Source: Exobasidium rhododendri (lineage: Eukaryota > Basidiomycota > Exobasidiomycetes > Exobasidiales > Exobasidiaceae). From it: a DNA stretch of 64,000 nucleotides. Positions 391 through 20,928 of this stretch are shown in pieces. The DNA is taken from assembly GCA_026210745.1 (NCBI GenBank), contig CP110632.1, positions 1 to 64,000 on the forward strand, given 5' to 3'. The position numbers and the translations under genes are program-made. Each line of letters opens with the position of its first letter. Positions within the stretch are counted from its first letter, which is position 1. Under the pieces are notes generated by a model, which searched no databases, was not told the origin of the DNA, and was given only the letters and a program-made list of their open reading frames with translations.

Positions 391-1680
391 TGCCGCCCGA
401 CCCGCCTCCGAAATTTCCCTTTTTCCTTTTTTTTGCTCTTTTTTCCTTACTTCATATCTTGCTTCTGACGCGCTTTCTGGATGTATTGGGCCCCCCTGAA
501 CACTGCATTCACTCTTCTGTACTTAGCAAAATTTCACCTTTTTCACCAGCATCGGCCATCTTTTTTTCCTGCTTCCTAACCGGCTTCTGTTCACCTTGCA
601 CACACTCTGACATGCACACAGACCACCCTGAATCATTCACTTATCCACAAATAATAACGGCAACACCACTTTACACCCCCTTGGACGCCCAGAATCATGC
701 CTCGGAATACACACGCAACCCACCTGGAATGCCCTCCATCATGCTTAGTTATCCTCTCTCATGCCTTTCCATGCGTTGGGGTCTTGGAAATACAACAAAA
801 TCACACAAATACATCGATCTTTATTCCCTGTCCTCTTGCGGTGTTTTATGATGATTTGTGGGATAAATGTTGCGCATTCTTGTTCAATCTGCCTGATTCT
901 CTAGTATGCCGTGTGAATGGCCTCAAAAACATGCCCTGCCAAGTTGCAATAGATTCCAATCATGGAAAGAGAGACATTGCTCAGATGGCCGTCTGAAAAG
1001 GCACTGTTCTTGGATGATACAGTCATATAATGCTGTGTTGCGCTTTACTTGGCCTTGAATATAGTCAGACATGCATACACTGTACTCTCATGCCTTTTGA
1101 ACATGGAAAATACAACAAGAATGCGCTGGAATGGCCATTGGTGCTGGTTGACGCTTGTGGGGATGAACGGGAATGATCTGCGCACAGAAGTGTCTGATCT
1201 GTCTGATCTTGTAGTATGATATGTGAACTGGCCCAAAAACATGCCACGCCAAGTCTGAAAAGATTCAAATCACAGAAATTGACACTTCACTATGTGGGGT
1301 CTATACCATCACGTCTGTATGGGTCAAGTATGACAATATGGCATGATAGACCCCTCAAAGCACTTGCATATCCTTAAATAAACCCCTCTGATAGATTCAC
1401 ATCTTTTTTGTTTTACATTTGCATCTCACATGAATGGTGCTCTCAGTTTGTACGCTTAAGTGCCCGTACTCGTCATTTACAGTTCACTTTGCGCACTTTT
1501 CTCTCTGATTCTTATGAGCTTCTAGTATGACGTGCCATCTGGTTTAAAAACATGACACACCAAGTCTGAGCTCAATCGAATCACAAAAACACGTACATGC
1601 ATTAGAGCAACATGTTTTGGGACACGTAAATTGATGAAATTGGCTACTGAGTAAAGTATTTACTGTGAGGTGGGGAACAC
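391..1680. repeat. subtelomeric repeat block, copy 1, distal part
   Basis: No credible gene is present; open frames here lack family features. From about 585 the sequence is a diverged copy of 10,835-11,900: both contain the same succession of short phrases, for example CACAGACCACCCTGAATCA, CACTTTACACCCCC and GCGCTGGAATGGCCATTGG. The part from about 1,425 to 1,670 is repeated again at 2,087-2,335, so the dimeric module between them sits inside a local duplication. The first ~195 bp after the telomere are pyrimidine-rich and not repeated elsewhere in the window. Confidence 0.8.
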
Positions 1681-1784
1681 TTCAAACTTTGCAAGCACAC
1701 TCCAATAGTCTCAATATACATCCTTGCAAGGTAACAAGAAGATTGGGAAAGGTTGAAAAAATACATTTTGGACTCACATAGAAA

Positions 1785-2086
1785 GACGTCTGACTGAGTA
1801 AAGTCCGTCAATATTGACAATTGGGGGTAGGGTCATTGATGGGAATAAGAGAGTAGTCTATGCTCTACCCGTCTGCTTCATAAAAAAGAGGAACCCTGGG
1901 GCCTTTGGGAAATTCACCGGAACCATGGTCGCGACACGCAAAAAAGACGTTTGACGGGCTAGCGCCGTCAATTTTGACAATTGTGGGTAGGGTGGCTCAT
2001 TCAGATGATAGAGTAACATATATTCTTCCTGATTAGAACATAAAAGGGACCCACCCTAATGGCGCTGAGAGGGAAACCATGTGTAC
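1785..2086 (+). repeat. dispersed ~300-bp dimeric promoter-like module, copy 1
   Basis: The module has two related halves. Each starts with GACGT(C/T)TGAC, has GTCAAT(A/T)TTGACAATTG followed by GGGTAGGGT, then an A-rich TATA-like stretch (CATAAAA) about 40-50 bp before ACCATG. In the first half GTCAATATTGAC is a perfect 12-bp palindrome. It is almost identical to 20,625-20,928 and is diverged at 10,551-10,837. Sequence on both sides differs between the three sites, so it behaves as a discrete dispersed unit. Confidence 0.8.
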
Positions 2087-2880
2087 ATTTGCAACTCACA
2101 TGAATGATGGTCTTGGTTTGTACGCTTAAGTGCCCGTACTTGTCATTTACAGTTCACTTTGCGCACTATTCTCTCTGATTCTGATGAGCTTCTAGTATGA
2201 CGTGTCATCTGGTCTAAAACCATGGCACACCAAGTCTGAACTCAATCGAATCACAAAAACACGTACATGCATTAGAGAGACGTGTTTTGGGACACGTAAA
2301 TTGATGAAATTGGCTACTGAGTAAAGTATTCACTGTGACATGCAATTGCGTTCAAACTTCACAGAGAATGTTAGTTTGTTATTACAGTGATACCTGTCAA
2401 GCTGCTAAGCCTTGACACAATTTTGAAAAATACCATGTTTTGCCTCTCAGACACTCAGCCGTATACTTGTATCTACCCTGCAAATCACCTTTTCTGGCAT
2501 CTGTATACTGTATAGAAGGTATATGGAGCATACTAAGAGTGAATGGAACCCAATCTGGCGGGATGAAATTTTGACAGGGATGCTTTTTTAGAAACGGGGA
2601 CACGCGTACAGCCAAACGCTACTTGATGATCTGTCTACCGTTTCTTGAATATAGTAGCTATAGCTATGGCTCAACTTTCAAAGCAATGTTGTATTTTTGA
2701 TGCGCCAGATGATAACCTTCTCCCGTCTCATACCTCTGCTAGACGTCTGCATTACACTGGAGTCACCACACCAGGCGTTGAAGACACAAAGAAGCCCCCA
2801 AAGAGGCACTTTTGCAGTGTATTTGTGGCAGATGTGTGTCATTGGTACCTATTTCAGTGAATAAGTGACATTCATAGTGT
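2087..2880. repeat. subtelomeric spacer repeat, copy 1
   Basis: The segment from about 2,340 to 2,880 is repeated at 11,890-12,440 and 20,975-21,530. Shared landmarks include TTGAAAAATACCATGTTTT, ATGGAGCATACTAAGAGTGA and AGAGGCACTTTTGCAGTGTA. No gene is recognised; the open frames shared by the three copies carry no recognisable domain and differ between copies. Confidence 0.8.
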
Positions 2881-4985
2881 ATATTGGCCGTATAGAGCTG
2901 GAGTTAGGGTGCGCGCCCTTGTATCGCCTCGATACAGCCAAGATAGAGCCGGCGCATCGAAAAGTTTGAGCTGAGGTTAGGGTGCGCGCATTTATTACGC
3001 TTTTGCTCTTGCAAAAGTCGTGTTTCAAACTTTGGGCTTGCAAGACCTGAATAAACCGCCAGAGAGGCACTTTAGCAGTGTATTTGGGGAAGATTCAGGT
3101 CATCTGTATCCATCTTTATCAAAAAAAGACTTGCGATCGACAAATACAGCTGGGGTTAGGGTGCGCGCATCTGTATTTCTCTATGGAAGATAGAGCTAGC
3201 GCGTCGATGATAATAGGCTGAGGTTAGGGTGCGCGCACGTGTATTTCTCTATTAAGGGTATCGCTAAGATAAAGCTGGCGCGTCGATGAGATCCAACAGA
3301 GGTTAGGGCGCGCGCATCTTTCTTTGGCACTTGCAAGAGTCGTATTTCTATCATTAGGCTCGCATGACCTGAATAAACCGCCAAAGAGGCACTTTAGCAG
3401 TGTAATTGAGGAAGATTCAGGTCATCTGTGCCTATCTTCATCAAGAAGAGACTTGCGATCGACAAATAGAGCTGGAGTTAGGGTGCGCGCATCTGTATAT
3501 CTGTATCGAAGATTAGTGACGATAAGTCTTACGCGTCGAAGTTATTGATCCGAGGTTAGGGTGCGCGCATCTGTTTGGCTCTCGCAAGAGTCGTGTTCCC
3601 AACTTTAGGCTCGCATGACCTGAATTACCCGCCTGAGAGGCACTTTGGCAGTGTGTTTGGGGCCTATGCAGGTCACTCGTTCCTATCTTGAACAAAAGAT
3701 CAATTGCGATCGATGGTACTAAGCTGAGGTTAGGGTGCGCGTATCTGTATATCTCTATTAAGGGTATCGCTAAGATAGATCTTACGCGTCGAAGTCATCG
3801 ATCCGAGGTTAGGGTGCGCGTATCTGTGTCCGGCCCTCGCAAGAATCGCTTTTCTATCATTAGGCTTGCATGAATAGAATTACCCGCCACAGAGGCACTT
3901 TGGCAGTGTGTTTGGGGCCTATGCAGGTCACTCGTACCTATCTTGATCAAGAAGTAATTTGCGATCGACGACTCAGACTGAGGTTAGGGTGCGCGCATCT
4001 GTATTTCTCTAAGGAAATCGCTAAAATAGAGTTGGCGCATCGACGATAGAGTGCTGAAGTAAAGATGCTCATCTCTGTATTTGGCTTTTGCAAGAATCTT
4101 GTTTCTATCATTAGGTTTGCATGACCTGAATTAACCGCCACAGAGGCACTTTGGCAGTGTAATCGGGGAAGGTGCAGGTCACTCGTACCTATCTCGATCA
4201 AGAAGTGATTTGCGATCAACGACTCAGACTGAGTTTAGGGTGCGCGCACTAGTATGGCTGTATCGAAGGTTAGCAGAAATAGAGCTGGCGCAACATTGAT
4301 ACAGAGCTGAAGTTAGGGTGCGCACAAATCTCTGGCTCTCGCAAGGATCCTATTTCTATCATTGGGCCTGCATGACCTGAATTAATTGCCACAGAGGCAC
4401 TTTGGCAGTGTAATCGGGGAAGATTCAGGTCATTCGTACCTATCTTGGCCAAGAAGTGGTTTGCGATTGACAGTACAGTGCGGGAGTTAGGGTGCGCGCA
4501 TCTGCCCTACCATATTGCCGTATCAAAGGTGAGCTAAGATAGAGTCGGCGCATCGACGATAGAGTGCTGAAGTAAAGATGCTCATCTCTGTATTTGGCTC
4601 TCGCAAGACTCCTGTTTGTATCGTTAGCCTCGCATGACACGAATTAACCGCCACAGAGGCACTCTGGCTGTGTAATTGGGGCAGATGCATGTCACTCGTA
4701 CCTAATGTGACCAACAAATGAGTTGCAAACAGCAATTTAGAGCAGGAGTCAGGGTATGCATCGCTGTACTATCTCATCGAAGGTAATGCTCAGATAGGGC
4801 AGGTACATCTACGATACGGTGCTGTTCCCCTCATTAGGCTTGCACGACTTGATTCACCCGCCACAGAGGCACTTTAACAGTGTTGTTGTGGGAGATGCAG
4901 GTCAACTGTACCTATCCTGGTGAATAAGTGACATTTGGAGAGAAGATCGACGGTGTAGAGCTGGAGTTAGGGTGCGCATTGTATC
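2880..4985 (+). repeat. array of ~250-bp units with paired TTAGGGTGCGCG motifs, array 1
   Basis: About 14 copies of TTAGGGTGCGCG or close variants occur, all on the + strand and therefore inverted relative to the terminal telomere. They alternate at spacings of roughly 80 and 170 bp, giving a higher-order unit of ~250 bp. Each unit also holds phrases such as GAGGCACTTTGGCAGTGT and CGATCGAC. The last units (from about 4,700) are more decayed. No gene is present. Confidence 0.88.
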
Positions 4986-5127
4986 GTCCGTTGTAGTCTC
5001 ACCAAAAATAGCTGCAGGGGCTGGAGACTCAGAATAGCCGCCGTAGAGGCACTTTTCCAGTGTGTCTGTGGGCTCCAAATGTCCTCAATGCCTAAAACAG
5101 ATGTCATCCTGTCGATAGCGATGAGAT

Positions 5128-5727
5128 TAGTGGCCACGTGTGAGGTGAGCCTTCGAGTCGATACAGAGGCGAGATCGGGATTCGGCCGATGAAACAGGCG
5201 GCCACGTGTTGAAGTAACACGCGTGTCGATACAGAGGCGAGATCGGGATTCGGCCGATGAAACAGGCGGCCACGTGTTGAAGTAACACGCGTGTCGATAC
5301 AGAGGCGAGATCGGGATTCGGCCGATAAAACAGGCAGCCACGTGTTGAAGTAACACGCGTGTCGATACAGAGGCGAGATCGGGATTCGGCCGATGAAACA
5401 GGCGGCCACGTGTTGAAGTAACACGCGTGTCGATACTGAGGCGAGATCGGGATTCGGCCGATGAAACAGCTAGCCACGTGTGAAGTAACACGCGTGTCGA
5501 TACAGGGGCGAGAGGCAGCCACGTGTTGAGCTTGAGACGCGTGTTGATACAAGTGCGAGATCGGGATTCGGCCGATGAAACAGGCAGCCACGTGTGAAGT
5601 AAGACGCGTGTTGATACAGGGGCGAGAGGCAGCCACGTGTTGAGCTTGAGACGCGTGTCGATACAGGGGCGAGATCGGGATTCGGTCGATGAAACAGGCA
5701 GCCACGTGTTGAGCTTAAGACGCGTGT
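5128..5727. repeat. 68-bp minisatellite
   Basis: A 68-bp unit is tandemly repeated about eight to nine times; successive GCCACGTGTT starts at 5,201 and 5,269 give the period. Each unit carries a CACGTG palindrome, an ACGCGT palindrome (ACACGCGTGT) and an interrupted ATCGG...CCGAT inverted repeat. Copies toward the right (from about 5,490) include shorter deleted versions. Long open frames on the minus strand are a by-product of the repeat and are not called as genes. Confidence 0.92.
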
Positions 5728-5760
5728 TATATTCTCTATTTGTATCGCTTAATGTATACA

Positions 5761-5832
5761 AGTTGCTGTAGTATAGCGGCTAAATGTCTATTTGTGCTCT
5801 ATTGAGCTCGGGTTCGAATCCTGATCCTACTA
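5761..5832 (+). other. tRNA-like sequence with Pol III A and B boxes
   Basis: TAGTATAGCGG at 5,769-5,779 fits the A-box consensus TRGYNNARNNG, and GGTTCGAATCC at 5,811-5,821 is a perfect B box at normal tRNA spacing. A T-stem can form around TTCGAAT. The acceptor and anticodon stems do not pair well, so this is more likely a tRNA-derived element (SINE-like or pseudo-tRNA) than a working tRNA. Confidence 0.4.
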
Positions 5833-5929
5833 TTTTGCTAGGGTTACCGATTCGGCTCAATTTTGAGCCACGAGCAGGCTCAAGACTCCCCTTAAATAGG
5901 CAATTTGGTGACGATACTTTCATAACAGG

Positions 5930-6004
5930 ACTTAGGTTAGTGGCTGGCGTTCCATTGACTCATTTCTATTGCCTTCTGGCGCGGGTTCGATTCCCGACCA
6001 AGGT
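5930..6004 (+). other. second tRNA-like sequence with B box
   Basis: GGTTCGATTCC (about 5,983-5,993) is a B box within a good T-arm. ACTTAGG at 5,930 can pair with CCAAGGT at 5,998 at six of seven positions, giving an acceptor stem over a 75-nt span. A four-pair D-like stem is possible, but no clean anticodon arm is visible. Degenerate tRNA or tRNA-derived repeat; it lies 160 bp from the previous one. Confidence 0.35.
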
Positions 6005-6261
6005 AGCAGGAGTGGGAATTTAGAACATACGTCGGTCACCCTAGGGAATCATAGTGTTCCGGTTGAGGAAAGCTACTGTCTAGATGTGAGAAATATCCCC
6101 TTCTTCGTCAAACCTTTAGTAAGTATCCAATTTGGCGGCTGTGTGGAGCAACGGTCTGCTCGTGTCTCTGCCTTGGGGGGTATCCTTGGCGGTTGGTACG
6201 AGTGGGTCACGCTTCTGAGGTCGGGTAGCTCCGACCTCAACACTCCGGTGGGCCTAGCTAG

Positions 6262-6483
6262 CCCAGGTGGAGAGACAGTAGGCCCCAGGGCCGAAGTCTT
6301 TTGGGCGGGTTGGTGGTAACAATGTGCTACGGGAGTATGCACGAAAGACGGTGAACGTCTACCACCCAGACAGTAGGCCTTAGGGCCGAAGTCTTTTGCT
6401 GCGCATACACCCAACTCAGAGAGAGGGCCATGCGCCTTTACTGTGTTGGGGCAGGGCCATGCGCCTTTACTGTGTTGGGGCAT
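6262..6483. repeat. short direct repeats upstream of the dioxygenase gene
   Basis: A ~30-bp phrase beginning CAGTAGGCC and containing AGGGCCGAAGTCTTTTG occurs twice (about 6,278 and 6,370). Then AGGGCCATGCGCCTTTACTG is duplicated in tandem (about 6,423 and 6,452). They lie 110-330 bp upstream of the dioxygenase ATG and may be promoter elements. The rest of 5,728-6,593 holds the two tRNA-like sequences and no recognised gene. Confidence 0.6.
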
Positions 6484-6593
6484 GGCATTTAGTCATGTGA
6501 CTTGGCTAAAGACGGAAAGGTGAAAGACATAAAGGCAACCAAATCCTCACTTTGCATCTTACCTTCCTACCACAACCATCTCCCCCTTCTACA

Positions 6594-7802
6594 ATGGTAC
6601 GACACAAGAAACACCTCTTCAAACACAGTGGCAATACAGTGAACCGTAAGGTGAGAGGGTACCAGTGTGAGATCAACAAAGAGGCCCACTTTAGGAAGGT
6701 AGACCTCCACCGGTTGGCCAAAAAGGGACATCAGTGGGGCCCTAAGATGTTTAGGAGCATGACTAGGGACTATCGGTTGGCACCTCTGCAGAGTACCCCT
6801 ACACACAGCATTTACACTCTGGCTGGCTGCAGAGTGGTCCTGTGCAAGACAATGTCCTTTGTAGAGGAGGTGGCCAAGGCAGAGTCGCTCTCCAAGAGCC
6901 AGAGTAAGGGAGATGCTACCCTGAAAGTAGAAGAGTGGTTTCTGCACCTAAAACAGGCTAGCCCAGAAGAGAAGTCGGTTGTAGTCGTTGACCGAGACGG
7001 ACTACACTTTGCAAGCATACACTGGAAGCCAAGTGACCCCAATCACAAGTACAGCCAAGCTGTAAAGACTTGGGCAAAGGAGGTAGCTGCTATCCCTGCT
7101 ACTGTGGTAAAGGCAGTGGGAACCTCTCCCACAGCCTCTAGAAATAGCTCTGGAGGCTACCAAGTGAGCCACTTCCGACTCCGAGGCTTGGACGGCTGTC
7201 ATGTGCCAGGAGCGCCCAATTGGGACGGACGCTTCTACCAGCATCGTTCTCAAGTCGGCCACCTAGTCTTTGGAGAGAGTGCAGAGGTGGTAAGACAACA
7301 AATAGTCTCCTACCTGGCCATCCACTTCAACAAGGTCTTCCTGAAGATGGACAACTGGCAGAAGGACGGCTACCTGCGCCAACACCCCTTCCCAGATGAC
7401 TGGACTAAGGATGAGGACACCAAGAAGCGCATAGCAGAGGCAGGAGCCTCTCTGTGGCAGCCCTACACTGGCTATGCTCTCAAGTGGCCAGTGCAGTCTG
7501 CAGACTGCAGTCCCCATGTGGACTCTGCAGATGACAGATGCTCCTTGTGCACTGTCATGGCCTTTGGGGACTTTGAGGGAGGGGACCTGGTAATGCACCA
7601 ACCGGGCATAGTCACCGCTCTAGGCAGTGGCGACATGATCACCTTCCCTCCTAGTACTATCTGGCACTCCAACAAGCCAATCACCAAGGGCAAGAGAGGA
7701 AGTACCATCAGCTTCCTCACAGGATCCTTGCTCAAGCTCAAGAAGGGCAAGCTACACACTACCACCCCCTTCTTCAATGTAAAGGACTTCCAATGTATCT
7801 AA
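6594..7802 (+). CDS. 2-oxoglutarate/Fe(II) dioxygenase, TET/JBP-like
   Basis: Predicted 402-residue intronless protein. The C-terminal third shows the layout of a double-stranded beta-helix dioxygenase: HVD (iron-binding H-x-D), then FGDFEGGDL, a GSGD turn, the distal iron-binding His in IWHSNKPI, and a basic residue in KRGSTISF that would hold 2-oxoglutarate. This spacing resembles TET/JBP proteins, which oxidise thymine or 5-methylcytosine; basidiomycete genomes often carry them with transposons. The N-terminal part is basic and unrecognised, perhaps nucleic-acid binding. The start is the first ATG in the frame. It converges on the 712-residue gene. The fold is read from motifs; the DNA substrate is inference, and another 2OG-oxygenase family is possible. 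Confidence 0.75.
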   Translation: MVRHKKHLFKHSGNTVNRKVRGYQCEINKEAHFRKVDLHRLAKKGHQWGPKMFRSMTRDYRLAPLQSTPTHSIYTLAGCRVVLCKTMSFVEEVAKAESLSKSQSKGDATLKVEEWFLHLKQASPEEKSVVVVDRDGLHFASIHWKPSDPNHKYSQAVKTWAKEVAAIPATVVKAVGTSPTASRNSSGGYQVSHFRLRGLDGCHVPGAPNWDGRFYQHRSQVGHLVFGESAEVVRQQIVSYLAIHFNKVFLKMDNWQKDGYLRQHPFPDDWTKDEDTKKRIAEAGASLWQPYTGYALKWPVQSADCSPHVDSADDRCSLCTVMAFGDFEGGDLVMHQPGIVTALGSGDMITFPPSTIWHSNKPITKGKRGSTISFLTGSLLKLKKGKLHTTTPFFNVKDFQCI

Positions 7803-8004
7803 CTTCTTTATACTTAGCGTAATCGAACTCTTTACGTATCCCCTTATACTTAGCGTGTTTGACTAAGTAGATACACTTTCTTTTTGTACTTAGTGTATAT
7901 CATACGTATATTGTTAGTACCCGCACTAAGTATACACGTCATTAACTAGTACACGTCATTTATAATACACGTCATACTAGTAGACACAAGTAAATGGCGT
8001 GAGG
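7803..8004. other. AT-rich intergenic region between convergent genes
   Basis: About 200 bp between two convergent stop codons. It contains four versions of ACTTAG(C/T)GT and three of ACACGTCA, arranged as short direct repeats. It probably carries both 3' ends. A similar phrase (TACTTAGTG...ATACG) occurs at 16,568 upstream of the paralogous gene. Confidence 0.5.
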
Positions 8005-10143
8005 TCACATGAGGAACATATCTGCCAGCGCGTACTCCACAAAGAGCTTCTTACATGCCATCTCATTGTAGGGCTTCTTGCATAGCCGACACCTCAAGCG
8101 GAAAGAACTCTTCTGATGGTCTTGGTTCAGTTGTGCAGTGGAGACATTGCATGCCTGGCAGAGGATCAGTGCACGCCTGGGAAGGAAGAACTCTTTTAGC
8201 GCAGTCACGCCATGCATGTCTGCTATGACCTGTGCCAAGTCAGTGTTGTGCGTAGGAGGTGGGGTAAGGGGAGGCGTGAGAGCTCTAGGCATGTCAATGA
8301 CCACGTCCACCAGCTGCTGCCTTCCTGTTCCTCTGACGGGTGAGTCAATGACAACCTCCAGAGAGGCAGTGCGCCTTGCAGGAATGATGGACGCTGATGT
8401 GACTCTCTCCTGCAGAACCCTCTGCTGTGACGCATATCTTGCAATGCGCAGCTGTGGGTTCTCTTGCATCCTTCTCCTTCTGTTGGCCGTGTCTGGACTG
8501 GGGAGAAGGCGCTGGACCATGCACTCCAAGAGATACTCCCGCAGTGCCCTGCCCTGCAAGCCATGGCCTGCTTTCTTGCACTGTAGACGTAGAGGAGACT
8601 GCCTAACCACCTTATAGGAGTCATAGGTGCCGTCTTCACATACCTTGCAGATCAAGTGGTGGCGTATCATCTGGAAGTACGCTGCACACTCCCTTTCTGC
8701 CCTGATCTGGTTGCGTATGTCAAACATCTCTGCTGGTGACAGTCTTGGCTCCAGGAAGCGCACAGAGTGGATGTACGCACTGGGCAGACAGAGGTCTGGC
8801 TGCAGCATGAACTCTTCTGACCACCACGGCAGCTCCTTGTCCCACTTGGTAGGCTTGCCTGGGCGTCCAAAGTTGAACCCTATAGAGTTGCACAGGTCAA
8901 TAGAGACCTGGCGGTGCAGCGCTCCTGTGGTTCCAGAGTGACGCCCAACAAAGATCCTCAACTGCTGCGCACGCCTTAAGAGACGTCTGCTGTTGGCTAA
9001 GAGGCATTCCATGGACAGTGTCTGGCACTCTAGATAAAGATGCGCATGCTCTTCTTCTTTGGTGTACGTCTTCAGGTCAAGCAGAGGTGTGGCGTCTATC
9101 TGCGCTTTGGCTAGCTGCATAGTAGGCGCAAACACACTGGCTTCCACACGGCAGCCTCCCCAGATTGCAGATGATGATGCCGCAAGCTGCGCTATCTTCT
9201 TCATAATCATACTACGTCTGTTGACAAGCATGTTGAAGGTGTTAGGGGTGGTGGTGGGTGCCTTCTGTCCACCCGCCTTCAGCAAATGTATGAGACGGGA
9301 GTAGATCTTTATATCTATCATGGCCACGTCCTCTCCTCCCTCTGGCGGCCAGCGCACAGTGAAAGAGGTACTGCCATAGTTCTCCCCCAGCGGTACTATC
9401 ATGGGGTAGTGCTTCCTGCGCACTGGCTTGAAGGTGGGGCTGGGCCGGAAGAGGACTATGTCATCTGTTGGCCACGTAGTCCCAAAGTCAAAGCGGTTGG
9501 TGTGCGCCAGGGGATGGTCAGGCTGGCCTATGTCTTCTTCTTCTTCACCCTCCCTGAGCAGTTGATGCTTCATGCCGTAGCCAGTGACACGCACAGCATC
9601 CACCTCTGCTGCCTCCATTGCCCGCACTAGATCACTGATACTGACCTGCGCATTCCCTGCAATGAGGACAGTTGGGTATGTGTTGGGAAGAATGACATGC
9701 CCCTGCGCCTGCAAGGCATCTACCAAGGCATCCTTCCACTGGGGCGCAACCATCAGCCGGCTGTTCACTGTGGCTACCAAGATCCAGTTGTGATACAGGG
9801 GCAGATCCCGTGGCGCATCCTTGCTGTATGATGCCAGCTGTACTGGCGTATAGGGGCCAAAGAAATCAATCAGCCCATCTGGTGTTATAGTGACGCTCCA
9901 TGCGTCCAGGTCAAGCGCACTATGCTCTTCAGGAAAGGTAGGATCCATCAGCACGTCTTCTTCCTCTACATACCCTGCGTCACTGCTCTCAGCTGTGCTG
10001 CTATTGCTGCTGGCAGTGGTGTTGGGGACAGAGCGCATGTTCCTCCTTGTTGGTACCTCCTCCCCGCTGTCACTACTGTCATTGTGGCCATGGAAGCCAT
10101 CACTGTAATTACTGCCGCTGTCACTATCTATATTGTCCGGCAT
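8005..10143 (-). CDS. subtelomeric family protein with two zinc-ribbon-like modules
   Basis: Predicted 712-residue intronless protein, not matched to any named family. The N-terminal ~90 residues are acidic and Ser/Asp-rich, so probably disordered. A central region (about 100-480) aligns by eye with the 1,072-residue protein at 16,850-20,250: EVDAVRVTGYGMK versus ECDAVRVMVYGIK, IKIYSRLIHLLKA versus MKIYPRYVHNLKA, GGCRVEASVFAPT versus GGYRMEVSIQAPT. Two Cys modules follow: C-x2-C...RLQC near residue 505, and C-x2-C...RLRCRLC near the C-terminus. It lacks the OTU domain of its paralogue. The ATG follows a stop-rich region. Possibly a nucleic-acid-binding protein of a telomere-associated element; function unknown. 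Confidence 0.85.
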   Translation of the reverse strand: MPDNIDSDSGSNYSDGFHGHNDSSDSGEEVPTRRNMRSVPNTTASSNSSTAESSDAGYVEEEDVLMDPTFPEEHSALDLDAWSVTITPDGLIDFFGPYTPVQLASYSKDAPRDLPLYHNWILVATVNSRLMVAPQWKDALVDALQAQGHVILPNTYPTVLIAGNAQVSISDLVRAMEAAEVDAVRVTGYGMKHQLLREGEEEEDIGQPDHPLAHTNRFDFGTTWPTDDIVLFRPSPTFKPVRRKHYPMIVPLGENYGSTSFTVRWPPEGGEDVAMIDIKIYSRLIHLLKAGGQKAPTTTPNTFNMLVNRRSMIMKKIAQLAASSSAIWGGCRVEASVFAPTMQLAKAQIDATPLLDLKTYTKEEEHAHLYLECQTLSMECLLANSRRLLRRAQQLRIFVGRHSGTTGALHRQVSIDLCNSIGFNFGRPGKPTKWDKELPWWSEEFMLQPDLCLPSAYIHSVRFLEPRLSPAEMFDIRNQIRAERECAAYFQMIRHHLICKVCEDGTYDSYKVVRQSPLRLQCKKAGHGLQGRALREYLLECMVQRLLPSPDTANRRRRMQENPQLRIARYASQQRVLQERVTSASIIPARRTASLEVVIDSPVRGTGRQQLVDVVIDMPRALTPPLTPPPTHNTDLAQVIADMHGVTALKEFFLPRRALILCQACNVSTAQLNQDHQKSSFRLRCRLCKKPYNEMACKKLFVEYALADMFLM

Positions 10144-10550
10144 GGTCTGTCTGTGTTGTTAAGTCTCCAATTCCAAAGACGCGCACTCATTTGTGAGGGG
10201 AGTGTACGGGGGGAATCTTCCTGTACTTCTCTGAAGAAGACGTGTATAATAGGGAATCTGCCCCACGTCCTCTCTCAATATTCACTGGGCACCAGAGGAG
10301 CATAGAAGAAATAGAGACGTCCTCTCTGTTCAGAGACAGCCATTCTGCCTCCAAATCCAACTTTCTGGACGCGTCCTCCTTTCTTAATTTGTATTGGTGA
10401 ATAGAATCATTGTTGTATGCAGTGACAGCTTTTGTATGGTAGTGTTGCGCTAAGGCTTGTGAGTGTTGGACTAACGCGTCTCTGGCCAAGTGCCAAGTGC
10501 GCCAAAGCAGAGATTGGCAAACGTCAGGCTGCTATATTGTACATAGAAAG
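10144..10550. promoter_or_regulatory. 5' flank of the 712-residue gene
   Basis: About 400 bp between the start codon of the minus-strand gene and the next dimeric module. No gene is seen. It must contain the promoter, but no clear TATA box could be assigned. Confidence 0.35.
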
Positions 10551-10837
10551 ACGTCTGACTGAGTAAAGTCCGTCAATATTGACAATTGGGGGTAGGGTCA
10601 TTGATGAGAATAAGAGAGTGGCATGTGCTCTACCCGTCTGCATCAAAAAATAGATGAACCCTGGTGCCTTTTGGAAATTCACCCGGACCATGGTCTCGAC
10701 ATGCAAAAAAGACGTTTAGTGGGCTAGCGCCGTCAATATTGACAATTGTGTGTAAGGTTGGGGTAACAGGGGACTCATTGGCATCTATTCTATCCAACTA
10801 TACCATATAAAACATCAACCTTTACGCACAACCATGT
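10551..10837 (+). repeat. dispersed dimeric promoter-like module, copy 2
   Basis: Diverged copy of the module at 1,785-2,086. It keeps GACGTCTGAC, the GTCAATATTGAC palindrome (here in both halves), TATA-like CATATAAAA and the ACCATG ends of both halves. After the second ATG the sequence differs from copies 1 and 3. Confidence 0.75.
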
Positions 10838-12440
10838 GTAACCCACAGACCACCCTGAATCACTTGCTCAATCACAAACAATAACAGCAACACCACTTTA
10901 CACCCCCCTTGGACGTCCAGAATCATGACTTGGAAGAAGCACGCAGACCACCTGGAATGCCCTCCATCATGCTTAGTTATACTCTCTCATGCCTTTGCAT
11001 GCTTTTGAATCTTGGGAATACAACAAAATTGCGCATATACATGGATCTTCATTGCCTGTACTCTTGCGGTGTTTCACAGTGATTGGGGGATAAATGTTGC
11101 GCAGTCTTGTTTGATCTGTCTGATTCTCTACTATGCCGTGTGAATGGCCTCAAAAATATGCTTGGCCAAGTTGCAACAGATTCCACTGATAAAAACAGGG
11201 ACCTCACTCAGTTGGCCGTTGGGAAAAGCACCATTCTTGGCTGATACAGTCATATTGTGCTGCGCTGCGCCTCACTTGGCCATGAATATAGTCAGACATG
11301 CATATACTGTACTCTCATGCCTTTTGAACATGAAAAATACAACAAGAATGCGCTGGAATGGCCATTGGTGCTCGTTGACGCTTGTGGGGATTAACGGGAA
11401 TGATCTGCACACAAGAGTGTCTGAGCCTTTTGATCTTGTAGTATGGTGTGTATTATAGTCTGAAAACATGCCACGCCAAGTCTGAAAAGATTTGAATCAC
11501 AAGAAATGACACTTCACTATGTGGTGTCTGATCAGTCACGTCTGTATGAGTGATGTATGGTGAGAATGCTTGATAGACTCTTCAGAGCACTCAGATATCA
11601 TTGAATAAGCCCCTTTGATGGATTGACATCTTTTTTGTTTTGCATTAGAAACTTCTTTGAGTGATGGTCTTGGTTTGTACACTTAAGTGCCCGTACTTGT
11701 CATTTACAGTTCACTTTGCGCACTTTTCTCTTTGATTCTTATAAGCTTCTAGTATGACGTGTCATCTGGTCTAAAAACATGACACACCAAGTCTGAGCTC
11801 AATCGAATCACAAAAACACGTACATGCATTAGAGCAACGTGTTTTGAGACACGTGAATTGATGAAATTGGCTACTGAGTGAAGTATTTACTGTGACATGC
11901 AATTGCGTTCAAACTTCACAGAGCCGGTCAATATATAGATATATAGGTGTGAGTGAAGTCACTAAGCCCTGAAGCAGATTTGAAAAATACCATGTTTTGC
12001 CTCTTGGACACTCAGCCGTATACTTGTATCTACCCTGCAAATCACCTTTTCTGGCATCTGTATACTGTTTAGAAGGTATATGGAGCATACTAAGAGTGAT
12101 CAGAACCCAATCTGACGGGATGAAATTTTGACGGGGACGCTTTTTTAGAAACGGGGACATGCGTACAGCCAAACGCTACTTGATGATCTGTCTGCCGTTT
12201 CTTGTATATGGTAGCTATAGCTATGGCGCAATTTTTAAAGCAATGTTGTATTTTTGATGCACCCGATAATTCCCTTCTCCTGTCTCGTACCTCTGCTAGA
12301 CGCCCACATTACACTGGAGTCACCACAACAGGCGTTGAAGACACAAAGAAGCCCCCAAAGAGGCACTTTTGCAGTGTATTTGTGGCAGACGTGTGTCATT
12401 GGTACCTATTTCAGTGAATAAGTGACATTCATAGTGTATA
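10835..12440. repeat. subtelomeric repeat block, copy 2 (spacers)
   Basis: The segment 10,835-11,900 repeats 585-1,680, and 11,890-12,440 repeats 2,340-2,880. No gene is recognised. In copy 2 the two segments are contiguous, whereas in copy 1 the dimeric module and a duplicated ~250 bp lie between them. Confidence 0.8.
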
Positions 12441-14235
12441 TTGGCGGTATAGAGCTGGAGTTAGGGTGTGCGCCCTTGTATCGCCTCAATACAGCCAAGA
12501 TAGAGCCGGCGCATCGAAAAGTTTGAGCTGAGGTTAGGGTGCGCGCATTTGTTACGCTTTTGCTCTTGCAAGAGTCGTATTTCAAACTTTGGGCTTGCAT
12601 GACCTGAATAAACCGCCAGAGAGGCACTTTAGCAGTGTATTTGGGGAAGATTCAGGTCATCTGTATCCATCTTTATCAAAAAAAGACTTGCGATCGACAA
12701 ATACAGCTGGGGTTAGGGTGCGCGCACGTGTATTTCTCTACTAAGGGTATTGCTGAGATAGATCTTACGCGTCGCCGTTATCGATCTGAGGTTAGGGTGC
12801 GCGCATCTGTTCGGCTCTCGCAAGAGTCGTGTTCCCAACTTTAGGCTTGCATGACTAGAATTACCCGCCTGAGAGGCACTTTGGCAGTGTAATTGGGGCA
12901 GATGCATGTCATCCATGCCTAATCTGGCCAACAAGTGAGTTGCGATCGACAGATACAGCTGGGGTTAGGGTGCGCGCATCTGTATATCTGTATCGAAGAT
13001 TAGTGACGATAAATCTTACGCGTCAAAGTTATCGATCCAAGGTTAGGGTGCGCGTACCTGTGTTTGGCCCTTGCAAGAATCGCTTTTCTATCATTAGGCT
13101 CGCATGACCTGAATTACCCGCCACAGAGGCACTTTGGCAGTGTAATCGGGGCCTATGCAGGTCACTTGTACCTATCTTGATCAAGAAATAATTTGCGATC
13201 GACAACTCAGACTGAGGTTAGGGTGCGCGCACGTGTATTTCTGCATGGACGATAAGTCTTACGCGTCGAAGTTATCGATCCGAGGTTAGGGTGCGCATAT
13301 CTGTGTTTGGCCATCGCAAGAATCCTATTTCTATCAATAGGCTCGCATGACCAGAATTACCCGCCACAGAGGCACTTTAGCAGTGTAATTGAGGAAGATT
13401 CAGGTCATCTGTACCTCATATGGCCAATAAGTGAGTTGCAATCGACAAATACAGCTGGAGTTAGGGTGCGCGCACGTGTATTACTGCATTGACGATAAGT
13501 CTTACGCGTCGAAGTTATTGATCCAAGGTTAGGGTGCGCGCATCTGTTTGGCTCTTGCAAGAGTCGTGTTTCAAACTTTAGGCTTGCATGACCAGAATTA
13601 CCCGCCACAGAGGCACTTTGGCAGTGTAATCGGGGCCTATGCAAGTCACTCGTTCCTATCTTGAACAAAAGATCAATTGCGATCGATGGTACTAAGCTGA
13701 GGTTAGGGTGCGCGTATCTATATTTCTCTATTAAGGGTATTGCTAAGATAGATCTTACGCGTCAAAGTTATCGATCCGAGGTTAGGGTGCGCGTACCTGC
13801 GTTTGGCCCTCGCAAGAATCTCTTTTCTATCATTAGGCTTGCAAGACCAGAATTACCCGCCAAAGAGGCACTTTAGCAGTGTAATCGGGGCCTATGCAGG
13901 TCACTCGTACCTATCTCAATGAAGAAGTAATTTGCAATCGATGATATCAGGCTGAGGTTAGGGTGCGCGTATCTGTATATCTGTATCGAAGATTAGTGAC
14001 GATAAATCTTACGCGTCGAGGTTATCAATCCGAGGTTAGGGTGCGCGCATCTGTTTGGCCCTCGCAAGAATCGTGTTCCCAACTTTAGGCTCGCATGACC
14101 AGAATTACCCGCCTGAGAGGCACTTTGGCAGTGTAATCAGGGCCTATGCAGGTCACTCATACCTATCTCAATGAAGAAGTAATTTGCGATCGATGATATC
14201 AGGCTGAGGTTAGGGTGCGCGCTCTGTATTTGGTC
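12440..14235 (+). repeat. array of ~250-bp units with paired TTAGGGTGCGCG motifs, array 2
   Basis: Fifteen TTAGGG-type motifs, all on the + strand, fall at about 12,460, 12,535, 12,712, 12,790 and so on to 14,210, alternating ~80 and ~170 bp. This is the most regular of the three arrays. Conserved unit phrases include ACGCGTCGAAGTTATCGATC, GAGGCACTTTGGCAGTGTAA and GCAGGTCACTCGTACCTATC. Confidence 0.9.
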
Positions 14236-16440
14236 TCGAGTGCTGGTCAAACTTCTTGTCTCGGGTGACTAGAAAAAACCACAATTTAGGCACTTTAACA
14301 GTGTATTTGTGGAAGATGCATGTCCTATGATCCAATACCAATGAACACAAGCATAGTCAGCTGTTTTCTAATTTTTCTGATTCTCTCGGGGAGGGAAAAA
14401 AAGAAAGTCTCTACTAGGAAAAGTCTCTCAAATGGCCACTAGAGACGATGTCTCATGGCAGTCAAATATGCTCATATAGTCCATACGGACCTATAGAAAC
14501 AATAATAGCTGTCTTTATTTTTTTCCATTCTCTCGGGGTCAGAAAAAAAAAGCGTCTGGACTGGGTAACGTCAGCCAGATGACTACTAACGGTGCTGCTC
14601 AACACTGATGAAACATCCTCCTATTGCCTCTACAGACGCCTAGAAACAGCTTTGACATGTGAAGGAGCCCCTACATAGAGCATACGCCCCCTTTACGGCT
14701 TTACGGCACCCATACGCCTCCACCACACACTCCTACCAACCCTTTCTGGACACCCACCCACCTCGTGATAAGCCTAGAGTAGCCTAGAGTAGCCTACATG
14801 CAAAATGTTTGGGGTTAGTGCCAAGATTTGGACCAGAAAAGGACCCCTTATCCTGCCGCAGATCGCTATGAAAACTATGTGTCAAAAAAATGAGAAAAAA
14901 CAATTAAAAAGTTGACCGAGGGTTTTGAAAAGCAGGAACAAAAATCGCCCCCCCCTAGCGCATATGTAAGAAGAGTCAAAAAAAAGATTCTTCTAGGAGT
15001 TAAAGTTTTTTTTCTCATTGGATCCTCACTTTTAGTGCAGCGATACTTAAGAACACTAACTTAAACTCTGAAAAGTCTTCATTCTGAATGGAGCAACTCG
15101 TCGAGGGGAGGCTTCTATGGCCTACTGTATAGTTTCCAATCATTTGGAGCTCTGCTAGTCATAAAGTTCTCATAGTGGGTTCTGGGGGCGATTTCTCAAC
15201 TTTTACTGCTTAGTTCTGATTTTTTCAGCTTTCCAGTGACTTAGAGACTTCTGGCTTGGGGGATAGAGCTTTGTGCTCGTCAGGAGACTGCTGCAATAGT
15301 CAGAAAGAAGATTCTTCTAGGACAAAAAGATTTTCTTCTTATAGGATCCTCATTTTTAATGCGACGACCCTTAGGAGGACTATCTTAGAGTCTGAAAGTC
15401 TTCATTCTGAATGAAGCAGCTCGTCGAGGGGAGGCTTCTATGGCCTACTGTATAGTTTCCAATCATTTGGAGCTCTGCTAGTCATGAAGTTCTCATAGTG
15501 GATTCTGGGGGCGATTTCTCAACGTCTACTGCCTAGTTCTGATCTTTTTCAGCTGTCCAGTGACTTAGAGACTATTGGCTTGGGGAATAGAGCTCTCTGC
15601 TCGTCGTGAGGCTGCTGTGAATCTTCCAGCTGTCCTGGCAATGTAGTAGAGGTGCTCCTTGGCTCTGGGGGAGGGATTTCTTGACGTCTAATGCCTAGTT
15701 CTGATCTAATCAGATGTCCGGTGACTGAGAGACTTCTGGCTTGGGGAATAGAGCTTTGTGCTCGTCGGGAGGCCTATAACAGCCTATGTTGTACCCTGTG
15801 GTGAAGGGGGGGATAGTTTTCCCTGATCCACTTGACTGCGTTTGCCGCCACCGGGCTGCCCTTTTTGACGGAAAAGAGTAGTGCGGTGGCTGGCATGTGA
15901 GAACACAGAGCCCTTGCTCAGCCTGGCTGTCCTGGAGGTGCCGCGTTAGTATTAGTAGTCAAAAAGAGGGGACAGCGCTGTTGGCTACTACACATCCGAA
16001 TGCACTCGGGATGTCTTTGGCTCATGGGGGATCACTTGTTGAATCTGGGGGAGAATGCAACCGGGGGAGAATGTATCTGGGGGAGAATGTATCTGGGGGA
16101 CACCACCTTCTTCTTTTTTTTGCCGCGGCGTGATGGTATCATGCGTGCATCCCGGCAAAAGAAAGAAGAAGAAGAAGAAAAGAAAAGAATGGAAGAAAGG
16201 TACTACTCACCTCATGTCTTTACTGCTCTTGTTACCATTGCCCCCAGGTGAACCGGGACGGGGCTTGCTCTGTCCCACATACTCAATACTTAGAAAGTTG
16301 CGGCGTCATAGAGGGATCATATGATAGATCAGAGGGCTATATGATATATGATAGAGGGATCATATGTCTTAGAGGGATATGGAAAGATGGTGCGCTCATG
16401 GTAGTAAGGCGCACTCTTAGTCTATGATTGTAAAATGAGA
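14236..16440. repeat. gene-poor repeat region with ~323-bp tandem duplication
   Basis: No gene is recognised. The stretch around 14,980-15,290 is repeated at 15,305-15,620 with a 323-bp offset; TCGAGGGGAGGCTTCTATGG recurs at 15,101 and 15,424. A third, partial copy lies near 15,665-15,780 (GGCTTGGGGAATAGAGCT). A smaller pair built on TCTCTCGGGG plus an A-run occurs at 14,375 and 14,532. At 16,040-16,100 a 17-bp minisatellite (GGAGAATGTATCTGGGG) is present about three times. Near 16,315-16,375 are overlapping ATCATATG and GAGGGAT repeats. Confidence 0.7.
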
Positions 16441-16547
16441 CTAAGACATCTTTTCTTTATTTTTTCTTTCTTTTTTTCTTTCTTTTCCTTAAGGGATATC
16501 AGACGTCCATGATATACTTAAGGAAAAGAAAGATTTTGTTGTCTTAG
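16441..16547. repeat. long inverted repeat (hairpin)
   Basis: TTCTTTCTTTTCCTTAAG (16,476-16,493) faces CTTAAGGAAAAGAAAGA (16,517-16,533) across a ~23-bp loop. Outer arms CTAAGACA and TGTCTTAG extend the pairing to the ends, with an imperfect section between. It could be a MITE-like remnant or a transcriptional structure; it sits 300 bp upstream of the four-exon gene. Confidence 0.7.
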
Positions 16548-16659
16548 AGAATATTTGAACTAGGCGTCATACTTAGTGATATACGCTATGGTTCATGAGA
16601 GTATATATGGGGGCGCTGTTAAGTTCCCCCCTTGCAAACTATCGGATACAACGCTTTCA

Positions 16660-16835
16660 AACACACACACACACATCTTCACACACACACACACACACAC
16701 CAAAGCGCCATCTGATAGTTGACAAGGACACTTGCAGAAAATCCAGGTTTCGCCTCCCAGCGGCCGCCCCCGGGTAGAGGACATCCACTCTAGCTGAAGA
16801 GCCTGGTAACACACACAAAGCACACACACACACAC
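16660..16835. repeat. CA microsatellites in the 5' leader
   Basis: Two (CA)n runs (about 16,660-16,700 and 16,805-16,835) lie just upstream of the start codon at 16,850, probably in the promoter or 5' UTR. Confidence 0.75.
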
Positions 16836-16849
16836 AGACGCCAGCCATC

Positions 16850-19800: not shown

Positions 19801-20250
19801 GGAGACACACGCAAGCTCCCCAAGATGCGGCAGCTGCAAGGCAATCTGACTGTGACGGTGGACTTTGTACCGGCCCAGGGCAACTGCCAGTTTGCTGCCA
19901 TCAGCTGGCACCAGTTTGGGAACCTGCGCTCTGCGTACCCAGTCCGGAGACGTGTGGTGGGATGGATGGGACAGCCAGACAACCGTCACTACATCACCAA
20001 CTTTGCCACAGAAGATGAAGGACACCTAGGCACCGCCCAGTGGCTCAAGACAATGGCCAAGCCAGGAGTGTGGGGAGACCAGCTCAGTCTCTTTGCAGCA
20101 GCCTCTGCATATGGCCTGCCGCTAGCAGTAGCCAGCCTGCAAGAAGACGGCACCCTGGCCTGGTCATACTATCCTGACAGTGAGCAGGTCTCTTATCATG
20201 GACTCTACCACGCCAACAACCACTATGAGCTCCTCTTTGTATCCTCATAG
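16850..20250 (+). CDS. subtelomeric family protein with C-terminal OTU-type protease domain
   Basis: Four exons: 16,850-17,092, 17,151-17,414, 17,474-17,608 and 17,674-20,250. The three introns (58, 59, 65 nt) are phase 0 with GTGAGT or GTAAGT donors, giving about 1,072 residues. The N-terminus is basic. Exon 2 encodes an 8-residue repeat (SEPESE[QR]V) from a 24-bp DNA repeat. An acidic region with five PEE-type repeats precedes the core shared with the 712-residue protein at 8,005-10,143. A Cys module (CPMC...RCKGEGC) follows. The last ~130 residues look like an OTU cysteine protease: QGNCQF with candidate Cys952, a middle WGDQLSLFAAA block, and NNHYELL with candidate His1064. OTU enzymes usually cleave ubiquitin; here substrate and role are unknown. 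In known transposons OTU domains occur as accessory domains. Confidence 0.85.
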
Positions 20251-20624
20251 TCCTGTATGTATCCTGTAAATAGTTCTTGTGTTCCAGAAATGAATTGTGT
20301 TTCCTATACGTGCTGTGTGTGAGACGGCTTGAAGAGACAGGTGAAGTGAAAAATATCACTAAGTATGATGAGACATACATGTGTTCATAATGCCGCCCTA
20401 AGCCCATATATGATGCTAAGAGTGGTCTGGTAAGACTGGAATAAATACGCTTTGCGCTCATGTACCCGTTTTTGAAAGGACGGGCTACTGAGTGGACTCT
20501 GTCAGTTCTGTTAAGGGACTCTTTATTCTTTGCATACACCCTTTTTTGGTCTCTCTGAACGTCTCTGTGAAGTTACAGAACAATTGTGATAGTTTGAAAG
20601 ATAGTACATTCTGGCATGAAAGTC
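20251..20624. other. 3' flank of the OTU-domain gene
   Basis: About 370 bp between the stop codon and the third dimeric module. No gene, no clear repeat; presumably holds the poly(A) site. Confidence 0.4.
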
Positions 20625-20928
20625 AGACGTCTGACTGGGTAAAGTCCGTCAATATTGACAATTGGGGGTAGGGTCATTGATGGGAATAAGAGAGTAGTCT
20701 ATGCTCTACCCGTCTGCTTCATAAAAAAGAGGAACCCTGGGGCCTTTGGGAAATTCACCGGAACCATGGTCGCGACACGCAAAAAAGACGTTTGACGGGC
20801 TAGCGCCGTCAATTTTGACAATTGTGGGTAGGGTGGCTCATTCAGATGATAGAGTAACATATATTCTTCCTGATTAGAACATAAAAGGGACCCACCCTAA
20901 TGGCGCTGAGAGGGAAACCATGTGTACA
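20625..20928 (+). repeat. dispersed dimeric promoter-like module, copy 3
   Basis: Nearly base-for-base identical to copy 1 (1,785-2,086); by eye one substitution near the left end. Flanks differ on both sides, which argues for recent movement or gene conversion rather than a shared long duplication. Confidence 0.8.

Follow-up and report, generated by a model that had tools for sequence, protein, structure and literature searches.

Yeast Y' elements and telomere-linked helicase repeats are subtelomeric repeats that carry open reading frames (ORFs) together with short internal telomere tracts and spread between chromosome ends. MoTeR elements of Magnaporthe and FoTeR elements of Fusarium encode a reverse transcriptase and, according to the available portions of two papers, occur at chromosome ends only, in one orientation, with truncated copies and with short telomere motifs at a fixed end (PMC12857005, PMC8381367). 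Likewise, Terminons and the endonuclease-deficient Penelope-like elements of rotifer telomeres form head-to-tail telomeric arrays with 5'-truncated copies, accessory ORFs and C-rich telomere letters at the attaching end, and Terminons combine a reverse transcriptase with a hammerhead ribozyme (PMC6431247, accessible part). A different kind of system is found on fungal DNA transposons, including Harbinger elements, which carry 2OG oxygenases of the TET/JBP family (PU, AG and PE types; PMC12730594, accessible part).

We compared these systems with a subtelomere of the plant-pathogenic fungus Exobasidium rhododendri, contained in a window of 64,000 nucleotides at one end of contig CP110632.1. It is built from two element families, A and B, which resemble MoTeR, FoTeR and Terminons in being restricted to telomeres, in having one orientation and a fixed proximal end, and in being truncated distally. 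However, instead of a reverse transcriptase they encode an oxygenase with a Cys-rich protein (A) or an OTU fusion (B), and the RVT_1 model had no match in either. At E ≤ 0.01 this model had a single match in the genome, which is not at a chromosome end and looks like telomerase. A Terminon-type hammerhead ribozyme was not supported either, as Rfam gave nothing at gathering level in window positions 1-22500 and, at E ≤ 10, no row at one of two right ends and two chance-level rows at the other. A and B share ORFs, telomere tracts and spread between ends with the Y' and helicase repeats, but the cargo of those repeats is a helicase, and none of the three proteins tested matched a Pfam helicase model.

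Organization of the subtelomere and its two element families

The window starts with a terminal telomere array, (CCTAAC)n (1-390; Tandem Repeats Finder, 65 copies, 99% match), with the G-rich TTAGGG strand on the minus strand; all elements that follow lie on the plus strand. The outermost one is an OTU-less short deletion derivative of element B (391-2085; matching 17-1313 and 10017-10398 of the B reference), whose fixed right end, ...AACCATGTGTA, was located by right-end alignment. Next comes a left-truncated copy of element A with the gene pair (2086-10541), tiled on the A reference (C1R 416-10722); it is a mosaic, with the first ~1.7 kb closer to B than to A. Its fixed right terminus (TGCTATATTGTA, 10530-10541; right-end alignment) is common to five other A ends with different flanks. 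This copy is followed by a left-truncated element B tail ending in ...CAACCATGTGTA (10542-10840; right-end alignment and tiling), by an older, nearly full-length B copy (10841-20926; matching the B reference from position ~261, right-end alignment) and, at the inner edge of the subtelomere, by the oldest, left-truncated B remnant (20927-21925; tiling on the B reference). Tandem-repeat searches detected a 251-bp array with GTTAGGGTGCGCGC motifs (3218-4704, plus strand) and a 68/114-bp array upstream of the oxygenase gene (5157-5728, plus strand) in the A copy, and a TTAGGG-bearing array of 252-bp units (12568-14231) in the older B copy. The preliminary description placed TTAGGG arrays on both sides of the oxygenase gene; both are present, but the right-hand array belongs to element B and not to the carrier of the gene. 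The motif TTAGGGTGCGCG occurs 26 times, always on the plus strand, against 0.01 occurrences expected from 100 shuffles.

Over all six chromosome ends, both families have a fixed centromere-proximal end, ...TGTA, in 16 copies with 15 distinct flanks and in one orientation (six right ends in A and ten in B). Whole-genome searches with the A and B tails found matches at chromosome ends only (at least 6 and at least 10, respectively). On the 5' side of the fixed end, the family A tail is 91-100% identical over 104-363 bp, and the next 40 nt past the A ends have a mean identity of 28% (15 pairs). The corresponding identity past nine exact B ends is 30% (36 pairs, of which C2L/C3L is the same junction), although the B ends were listed by motif search, which in itself produces part of the agreement in their last letters, and the whole 344-bp tail is common to only 6 of the 10. 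The full-length B copy at C2R ends at 12510 and is followed by a truncated tail; the B reference used for tiling runs past this end, to 12646. In 12 of the 15 distinct flanks, the flank is a truncated older copy starting at an internal position, which is expected for additions after erosion.

The oxygenase gene, its partner and a transposon-borne relative

The oxygenase ORF (402 aa; 6594-7802, plus strand) starts 6.2 kb inside from the telomere, in agreement with the ~6 kb first described, and is convergent, tail to tail, with the partner ORF (712 aa; 8005-10143, minus strand). Its translation contains the metal triad and a downstream Arg as H308-x-D310...H358...R368, as the preliminary description had recognized; most 2OG-Fe(II) oxygenases show this layout, and it is not specific to TET/JBP enzymes. 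Oxygenase copies that are 98-100% identical were found at four of the six chromosome ends, and the partner accompanies them at the same four; the other two ends are without the gene. Of the 24 differences between the intact copies at C3L and C1R, which belong to different groups, 17 fall on third codon positions. Because of this pattern and the recurrence at four ends, we consider the ORF to be more than a chance frame. The proposed pairing with a Cys-module protein and the linkage to subtelomeres thus both hold beyond this chromosome end, and we regard it as well supported that element A, a telomere-associated element of ~10 kb, carries the two genes as cargo. Compared with C3L, the gene pair at C2L is frameshifted by three single-base gaps, all in C5 runs, which are the sole differences over the 8,456 bp of 2086-10541 (0 substitutions); C1L and C1R differ by 3 substitutions and by two such gaps, one in a C5 and one in a C3 run, over 4,964 bp. 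These gaps may be sequencing errors and were not used as evidence. Upstream of all four oxygenase copies, and nowhere else in the 6 x 30 kb of chromosome ends, there are two motifs, GGTTCGAATCC at 5811 and GGTTCGATTCC at 5984 (5811-5994, plus strand), which we take to be Pol III B-box-like; ARAGORN predicted no tRNA. In the whole genome, the 854-bp stretch upstream of the oxygenase matches these four places only.

The partner, which is the only protein common to A and B, contains two clusters of Cys residues (C499/C502/C522 and C662/C665/C685/C688). In B, a relative of the partner carries an OTU cysteine-protease domain at its C terminus (884 aa; 17596-20250, plus strand; PF02338, E 1.1e-5, 26.3 bits with the cut-off at 23.3). 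The partner core is shared with this OTU protein (29%) and with the one outside relative of the partner in protein databases (P0004; 684 aa, 49%), which comes from contigs of at most 3,055 bases. The oxygenase found only E. rhododendri entries in protein databases, one of these searches having scored the candidates that share most words, and scans of viral contigs confirmed no relatives. The predicted structures were too poor to use (mean pLDDT of 31 for the oxygenase by AlphaFold2 without an alignment, and 38 for the partner with a 5-row alignment).

The oxygenase could not be placed in the TET/JBP family that had been proposed for it. Pfam, including Tet_JBP (PF12851), gave no match to the full 402-aa protein at E ≤ 1, and its two C-terminal pieces at E ≤ 10 gave WelO5 (0.26) for one and none for the other. 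A genome-wide search with PF12851 at E ≤ 10, scoring the best candidates, found seven sub-threshold places, none at the oxygenase gene, and the oxygenase profile had 0 matches among PDB sequences at E ≤ 10. The lowest E-values were obtained with generic 2OG models (phrog_61, 5.1e-6). The residue layout, with weak profile support, points to a member of the 2OG-Fe(II) oxygenase superfamily.

A PIF/Harbinger transposon of the same genome (L037) carries, as its third ORF, the nearest relative that we found (26% over ~250 aligned aa, 2e-20). The suggested link to transposons is therefore borne out as homology to a transposon-borne oxygenase, without the TET/JBP membership. All of the H, D, H and R residues are kept in the transposon protein, and R368 is replaced by Q in a relic (L038). 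The transposon exists in three 4.79-kb copies that are 99.96-99.98% identical, with 17-bp terminal inverted repeats and a DDE_Tnp_4 transposase (PF13359, 4.4e-21); a target duplication, looked for by eye, was not established. Its second ORF is Myb-like (PF13837, 0.0033, below cut-off), unlike the TET+ Harbinger of Puccinia, which lacks a Myb/SANT protein (PMC12730594, accessible part).

Purifying selection acts on the cargo genes (dN/dS 0.09-0.22): the ratio is 0.16 for the partner, 0.09-0.22 for the OTU protein and 0.10-0.16 when the two groups of the oxygenase are compared. These genes are also CpG-depleted like transposons: the three have observed/expected ratios of 0.27, 0.46 and 0.36, as compared with 0.77-1.01 in all but one of 28 other ORFs, the exception (0.46) being an ORF of a transposon. 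In the non-coding repeats, C/T differences per site are highest at TCG (0.249), ACG (0.138) and CCG (0.119), the 13 other contexts reaching at most 0.106 and GCG not being raised (0.079); these counts are unpolarised in direction and come from overlapping, non-independent pairs. CpG transversions are likewise raised in coding sequence. The CpG depletion and the C/T excess suggest that the chromosome ends may be methylated. The genome has two DNA_methylase genes above cut-off, one of them with SNF2. A 2167-aa frame (L044) joins a DNA methylase and an SNF2 ATPase/helicase in one protein (PF00145, 1.4e-13; PF00176, 4.7e-24; PF00271, 2.1e-6), an architecture like that of DNMT5, although the RING finger of DNMT5 was not among its Pfam matches (PMC7862722, accessible part).

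Possible origins of the elements and roles of the oxygenase

The best reading of these data, to which we give an even chance, is that element A is a telomere-colonizing selfish element with an anti-silencing oxygenase. A and B copies would be added to eroded chromosome ends, the fixed end being joined to the chromosome 3' end or to a telomere vestige, and the shared partner protein would serve maintenance or attachment of the element. The oxygenase would most likely act on a chromatin mark of the subtelomeric repeats, methylated cytosine or another one, and thereby keep the element expressed and spreading; in B, the OTU protease fused to the partner would take the accessory place. This suggests that selfish DNA uses an oxygenase to resist silencing. 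Against this reading, Pfam transposase models found nothing in the 402- and 712-aa proteins of element A, with the RVT_1 model no mobilizing enzyme was found among the ORFs, and ladders of truncated copies can also arise when short tracts of telomere repeat recombine, the alternative treated below. We also consider, as a tentative and rather unlikely proposal, that A and B form a new class of chromosome-end mobile elements without a reverse transcriptase, in which the TGTA terminus would be joined directly to the 3' end of the eroded chromosome by the Cys-rich partner, or by telomerase as apparently the only RVT_1 protein of the genome, with interchangeable anti-silencing cargo (2OG oxygenase in A, OTU protease in B). 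If the element reading is true, the subtelomeres of E. rhododendri are the work of selfish elements that have fixed ends but lack any detectable reverse transcriptase of their own, and this combination was not found in the literature examined. The range of transposon-borne oxygenases would then reach beyond DNA transposons to telomere-bound elements, and to the Exobasidiomycetes, a fungal class that, like Ustilaginomycotina, goes unnamed in the main text of the most recent survey found (PMC12730594). The species offers a testable setting, since all six ends of its three chromosomes are assembled and its methyltransferase-like genes possibly make the opposing mark.

A possible, though somewhat unlikely, alternative is a passive subtelomeric repeat, in which eroded ends invade other ends at short interstitial telomere motifs and copy all of the sequence distal to them (telomere-attrition-induced replication, as in Magnaporthe), so that the end would be fixed only because an old telomere vestige lies there. 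Eight of the 15 distinct flanks begin ACC or AACC, telomere-like C-strand letters after TGTA, as this alternative would have it, but the other seven begin CA at the same exact terminal base, without a telomere vestige. Near-identity between C2L and C3L (10.5 kb at 99.8%) and between C1L and C1R (5 kb at 99.9%) indicates that ectopic copying has been recent, and the restriction of RVT_1 to the telomerase-like locus also fits, as do published cases in which telomere failure is followed by tandem arrays that contain truncated copies and are delimited by telomere motifs (PMC8381367, accessible part). However, both families end in TGTA, and a single exact end next to unrelated flanks is not what copying by homology should produce.

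As for the enzyme, it is doubtful, but conceivable, that it hydroxylates a protein or small molecule (PKHD- or prolyl-hydroxylase-like, with a chromatin or ribosomal protein as a possible substrate) and is carried for another reason. The best NCBIfam match is a PKHD-type Fe2+ dioxygenase (NF003974, 4.9e-4, 19.7 bits, far below the cut-off of 143), and the transposon relative weakly matches PF13640 (0.057 for the full length, 0.016 for the domain). These generic matches lean towards the non-nucleic-acid family that the preliminary description had named as counter-evidence, without settling the matter, but they are at superfamily level only. CcTET, the characterized relative of the transposon-borne fungal enzymes, acts on DNA, which also speaks against this reading, although no transposon-encoded fungal enzyme of this kind has been assayed (PMC12730594, accessible part). 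A host TET/JBP-type enzyme modifying bases at telomeres, the role first envisaged, is very unlikely, and less likely than an element-borne enzyme: the subtelomeric location, the CpG-methylation-like signature, the two DNA_methylase genes and the TET/JBP enzymes on transposons of other fungi (PMC12730594, accessible part) would fit it, but Tet_JBP and PDB sequences gave no match, a repeated element carries the gene as cargo, and two of the six ends do without it.

Turning back to the Harbinger transposon, we rejected a recent gain of the oxygenase by an oxygenase-less element. In both of the oxygenase-less copies that we examined, the start codon of the oxygenase is retained and the breakpoints are not the same, pointing to two losses.

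The gene pair at the chromosome ends

Exobasidium rhododendri strain CBS101457 is a genome-sequenced isolate according to PMC13010171. The assembly comprises 17.65 Mb in four contigs, of which three (C1 to C3) are chromosome-sized (5.0-7.1 Mb) and begin with telomere repeats at all six ends; the window forms the left end of C3. The preliminary description placed a dioxygenase and a Cys-module partner between telomere-motif arrays, and this arrangement was confirmed. The oxygenase ORF (6594-7802, + strand, 402 aa) and the convergent partner ORF (8005-10143, - strand, 712 aa) are both present, with the layout H308-x-D310...H358...R368 in the former and Cys clusters 499/502/522 and 662/665/685/688 in the latter. 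TTAGGG-bearing arrays lie on both sides of the pair, the telomere array itself spans positions 1-390, and TTAGGGTGCGCG occurs 26 times, always on the + strand, against 0.01 expected.

When we searched the other chromosome ends, oxygenase and partner were found together at the same four of six ends (C1 left, C1 right, C2 left and C3 left), the oxygenase copies being 98-100% identical. Residues 278-381 of the oxygenase also matched four further places in the genome at 36-38%. In the left-end copies on C1 and C2 the partner is broken into two or three parts, and the gene pairs there (C2, 7.7-9.4 kb; C1, 4.1-6.0 kb) carry frameshifts alongside single-base differences. All three gaps between C2 left and C3 left fall in C5 runs, with no substitutions, and the frameshifts at the C2 and C1 left ends may be sequencing errors. 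Partner relatives (31-32%) occur as 884-887-aa frames at C3 left (17.6 kb), C2 right and C3 right; the 884-aa protein shares a common core with the partner (29% over 541 columns) and has an OTU domain at its C-terminal end (PF02338, 1.1e-5, above the cut-off). Because a 684-aa relative (P0004, 49%) comes from a different source, the partner family probably extends beyond this assembly.

Two exact Pol III B-box-like motifs (5811-5821 and 5984-5994) precede all four oxygenase copies and are absent from the rest of the 6 x 30 kb of chromosome ends; they may be remnants of tDNAs or boundary elements. Close to the subtelomere border, on its inner side, a homogentisate 1,2-dioxygenase-like ORF (23167-23811) matches the N-terminal domain from profile position 136 and positions 2-64 of 153 of the C-terminal domain, and is possibly an exon or fragment.

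Enzyme family and transposon relative

Its motif and two weak profile hits (phrog_61 at 5.1e-6; PKHD-type NF003974 at 4.9e-4, well under the cut-off) mark the 402-aa protein as a 2OG-Fe(II) oxygenase. The suggested TET/JBP identity is not supported, as the Tet_JBP profile gave no match to it. PDB sequences likewise contained no match to the oxygenase profile or to the related transposon protein described below, apart from two irrelevant entries. Failure of the Pfam test lowers the likelihood of TET-like activity, although it is not decisive, because the transposon-borne TET/JBP-like enzymes reported by Kojima (PMC12730594) are very divergent and were placed by structure.

The four distant matching places are ORFs of a PIF/Harbinger transposon, present as three 4.79-kb copies (99.96-99.98% identical) and one 94% relic. 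The element has 17-bp terminal inverted repeats, a DDE_Tnp_4 transposase (4.4e-21) and a weak Myb-like ORF. Its oxygenase frame is intact in two of the three copies (broken in that on C3), as is its transposase (interrupted at C1:3.63 Mb), so that both are whole only at C1:6.45 Mb. In Pfam, the full-length transposon oxygenase matched PF13640 only (0.057), and its domain alone matched PF13640 at 0.016 along with weaker entries. The subtelomeric and transposon oxygenases align over ~250 residues (26%, 2e-20). The alignment also takes in a VD-x-x-x-(L/V)HFAS stretch beyond the catalytic core, which suggests a single family rather than a pair of enzymes with a common generic core. The genome gave thirteen matches to the transposase; two have 56% identity, and some represent a single copy in two pieces. 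Two oxygenase-less copies were inspected, L040 (2751) and one ~20 kb inside the C1 right end, ~22.5 kb from the telomere; as their breakpoints differ and both keep the oxygenase start codon, their state is best explained by two independent losses of the gene from an ancestor that carried it.

Two telomere-associated elements with fixed ends

Alignment of the six ends showed that the subtelomeres are built as ladders from two related elements. One, A (reference C1R 416-10722), carries oxygenase and partner; the other, B (C2R 2115-12510, with a comparison reference that ran on to 12646), carries the OTU fusion. Three stretches, lying in the first 3.3 kb of A and the first 2.0 kb of B, show 85-86% identity between the elements, their arrays are related at 70-80%, and beyond these no match of at least 150 bp was found. 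The centromere-proximal end of A is fixed at ...TATTGTA in six copies, first recognised as alignment boundaries. That of B is fixed at ...AACCATGTGTA in nine exact copies and one with a mismatch, where agreement in the last letters is partly by construction because the set was completed by motif search. The whole 344-bp B tail is common to six of the ten B ends; two others have 139 bp in common, and the remaining pair is alike in an upstream sequence of its own. All A and B ends have a single orientation, and all 11 near-matches in the B motif scan lie on the + strand, that at C2R 13070 being probably due to chance. Among the matches listed, the A and B tails occur in the whole genome only at chromosome ends.

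The 16 junctions give 15 distinct flanks, as C2L 2094 and C3L 2085 represent the same event. Mean identity over the next 40 nt past the fixed end is 28% for A and 30% for the nine exact B ends. Of the sequences that follow these ends on the right, 12 are element copies starting at an internal position, one is a full-length B (after C2R 2114) and two have no similarity to A or B (after C2L 11324 and C2R 12646). A 1.7-kb OTU-less B derivative adjoins the telomere at four ends. Eight of the 15 flanks begin with telomere-like ACC or AACC and seven with CA. Either of two routes could have brought the elements to the chromosome ends. The partner protein or telomerase might attach the fixed terminus to the 3' end of an eroded chromosome; the only RVT_1 match in the genome at E<=0.01 (C3:2023438-2024748) appears by eye to be telomerase, suggesting that LINE-type reverse transcriptases are scarce in this genome. 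Alternatively, ends might copy one another via telomere vestiges, as described for Magnaporthe in PMC8381367, which agrees with the ACC-type flanks but only poorly with the CA-type ones, where the element stops at the same base.

In the open-licence literature, as far as its text was accessible, we found no telomere study of Exobasidium and no description of telomere-associated elements that carry a 2OG oxygenase or an OTU fusion. We have filed A as a telomere-associated selfish element with a divergent 2OG oxygenase as cargo.

Selection, CpG footprint and a second candidate enzyme

The dN/dS ratio is 0.10-0.16 for the oxygenase between the C3L/C2L and C1L/C1R groups (24 to 31 differences), 0.16 for the partner (C3L vs C1R) and 0.09-0.22 for three pairs of the OTU protein; within each oxygenase group, a ratio of 0.71 from only seven differences is uninformative. 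Despite their adjacency, dS is nearly ninefold higher in the partner (0.60) than in the oxygenase (0.07), and the last ~117 partner residues are 97% identical against 82% for the remainder. The oxygenase and this partner segment look homogenised by recent exchange.

CpG observed/expected is 0.27 in the oxygenase, 0.46 in the partner, 0.36 in the OTU protein and 0.40-0.57 in four transposon or repeat ORFs, compared with 0.77-1.01 in 27 of the 28 other mechanical ORFs (300 aa or longer) from these end regions; the 28th (0.46) is a Harbinger Myb ORF. In non-coding repeats, C/T differences at CpG (0.156) are about double those at other C (0.072-0.075), and transversions are not raised; these values come from 55 kb of aligned pairs that overlap and are not independent. 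By context, measured over positions 391-22000 and the other five ends, TCG is highest (0.249 per site), followed by ACG (0.138) and CCG (0.119), and GCG is not raised (0.079). A TCG pattern is reported for Pucciniomycotina (rust-fungus) repeats in PMC12730594. In coding pairs (22 kb aligned), CpG transversions are raised too (0.088 vs 0.051-0.055), which weakens the coding part of the methylation argument. The genome encodes a DNMT5-like protein (DNMT, SNF2 and helicase C), a second, fragmented DNA_methylase gene in which GPPCQ and ENV motifs were identified by eye, and one further sub-threshold match at C3:2569651.

The transposon relative, the CpG-methylation-like footprint and the persistence of functional genes together suggest that the oxygenase is most likely anti-silencing cargo. 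The transposon relative speaks for retention of the enzyme by mobile elements to their own advantage, and the subtelomeric genes remain functional and bear the marks that CpG methylation would be expected to leave.

A 332-aa 2OG-like protein, weakly matched by Tet_JBP (E 4.8e-4, below the cut-off) and encoded in a ~4.25-kb repeat, is a better candidate for TET/JBP membership than the subtelomeric oxygenase. The repeat has six near-identical copies (one at L041:1193-5001, continued in L042:1-445, equal to C1:2816492-2820745) and a seventh, partial and diverged, at C1:988.4-992.5 kb. Beside the 332-aa gene, 238 bp (L041:2437-2674) are 87% identical, in opposite orientation, to L037:5473-5710, the segment between oxygenase and transposase of the Harbinger element, as though flanking sequence had been transferred from one repeat family to the other.
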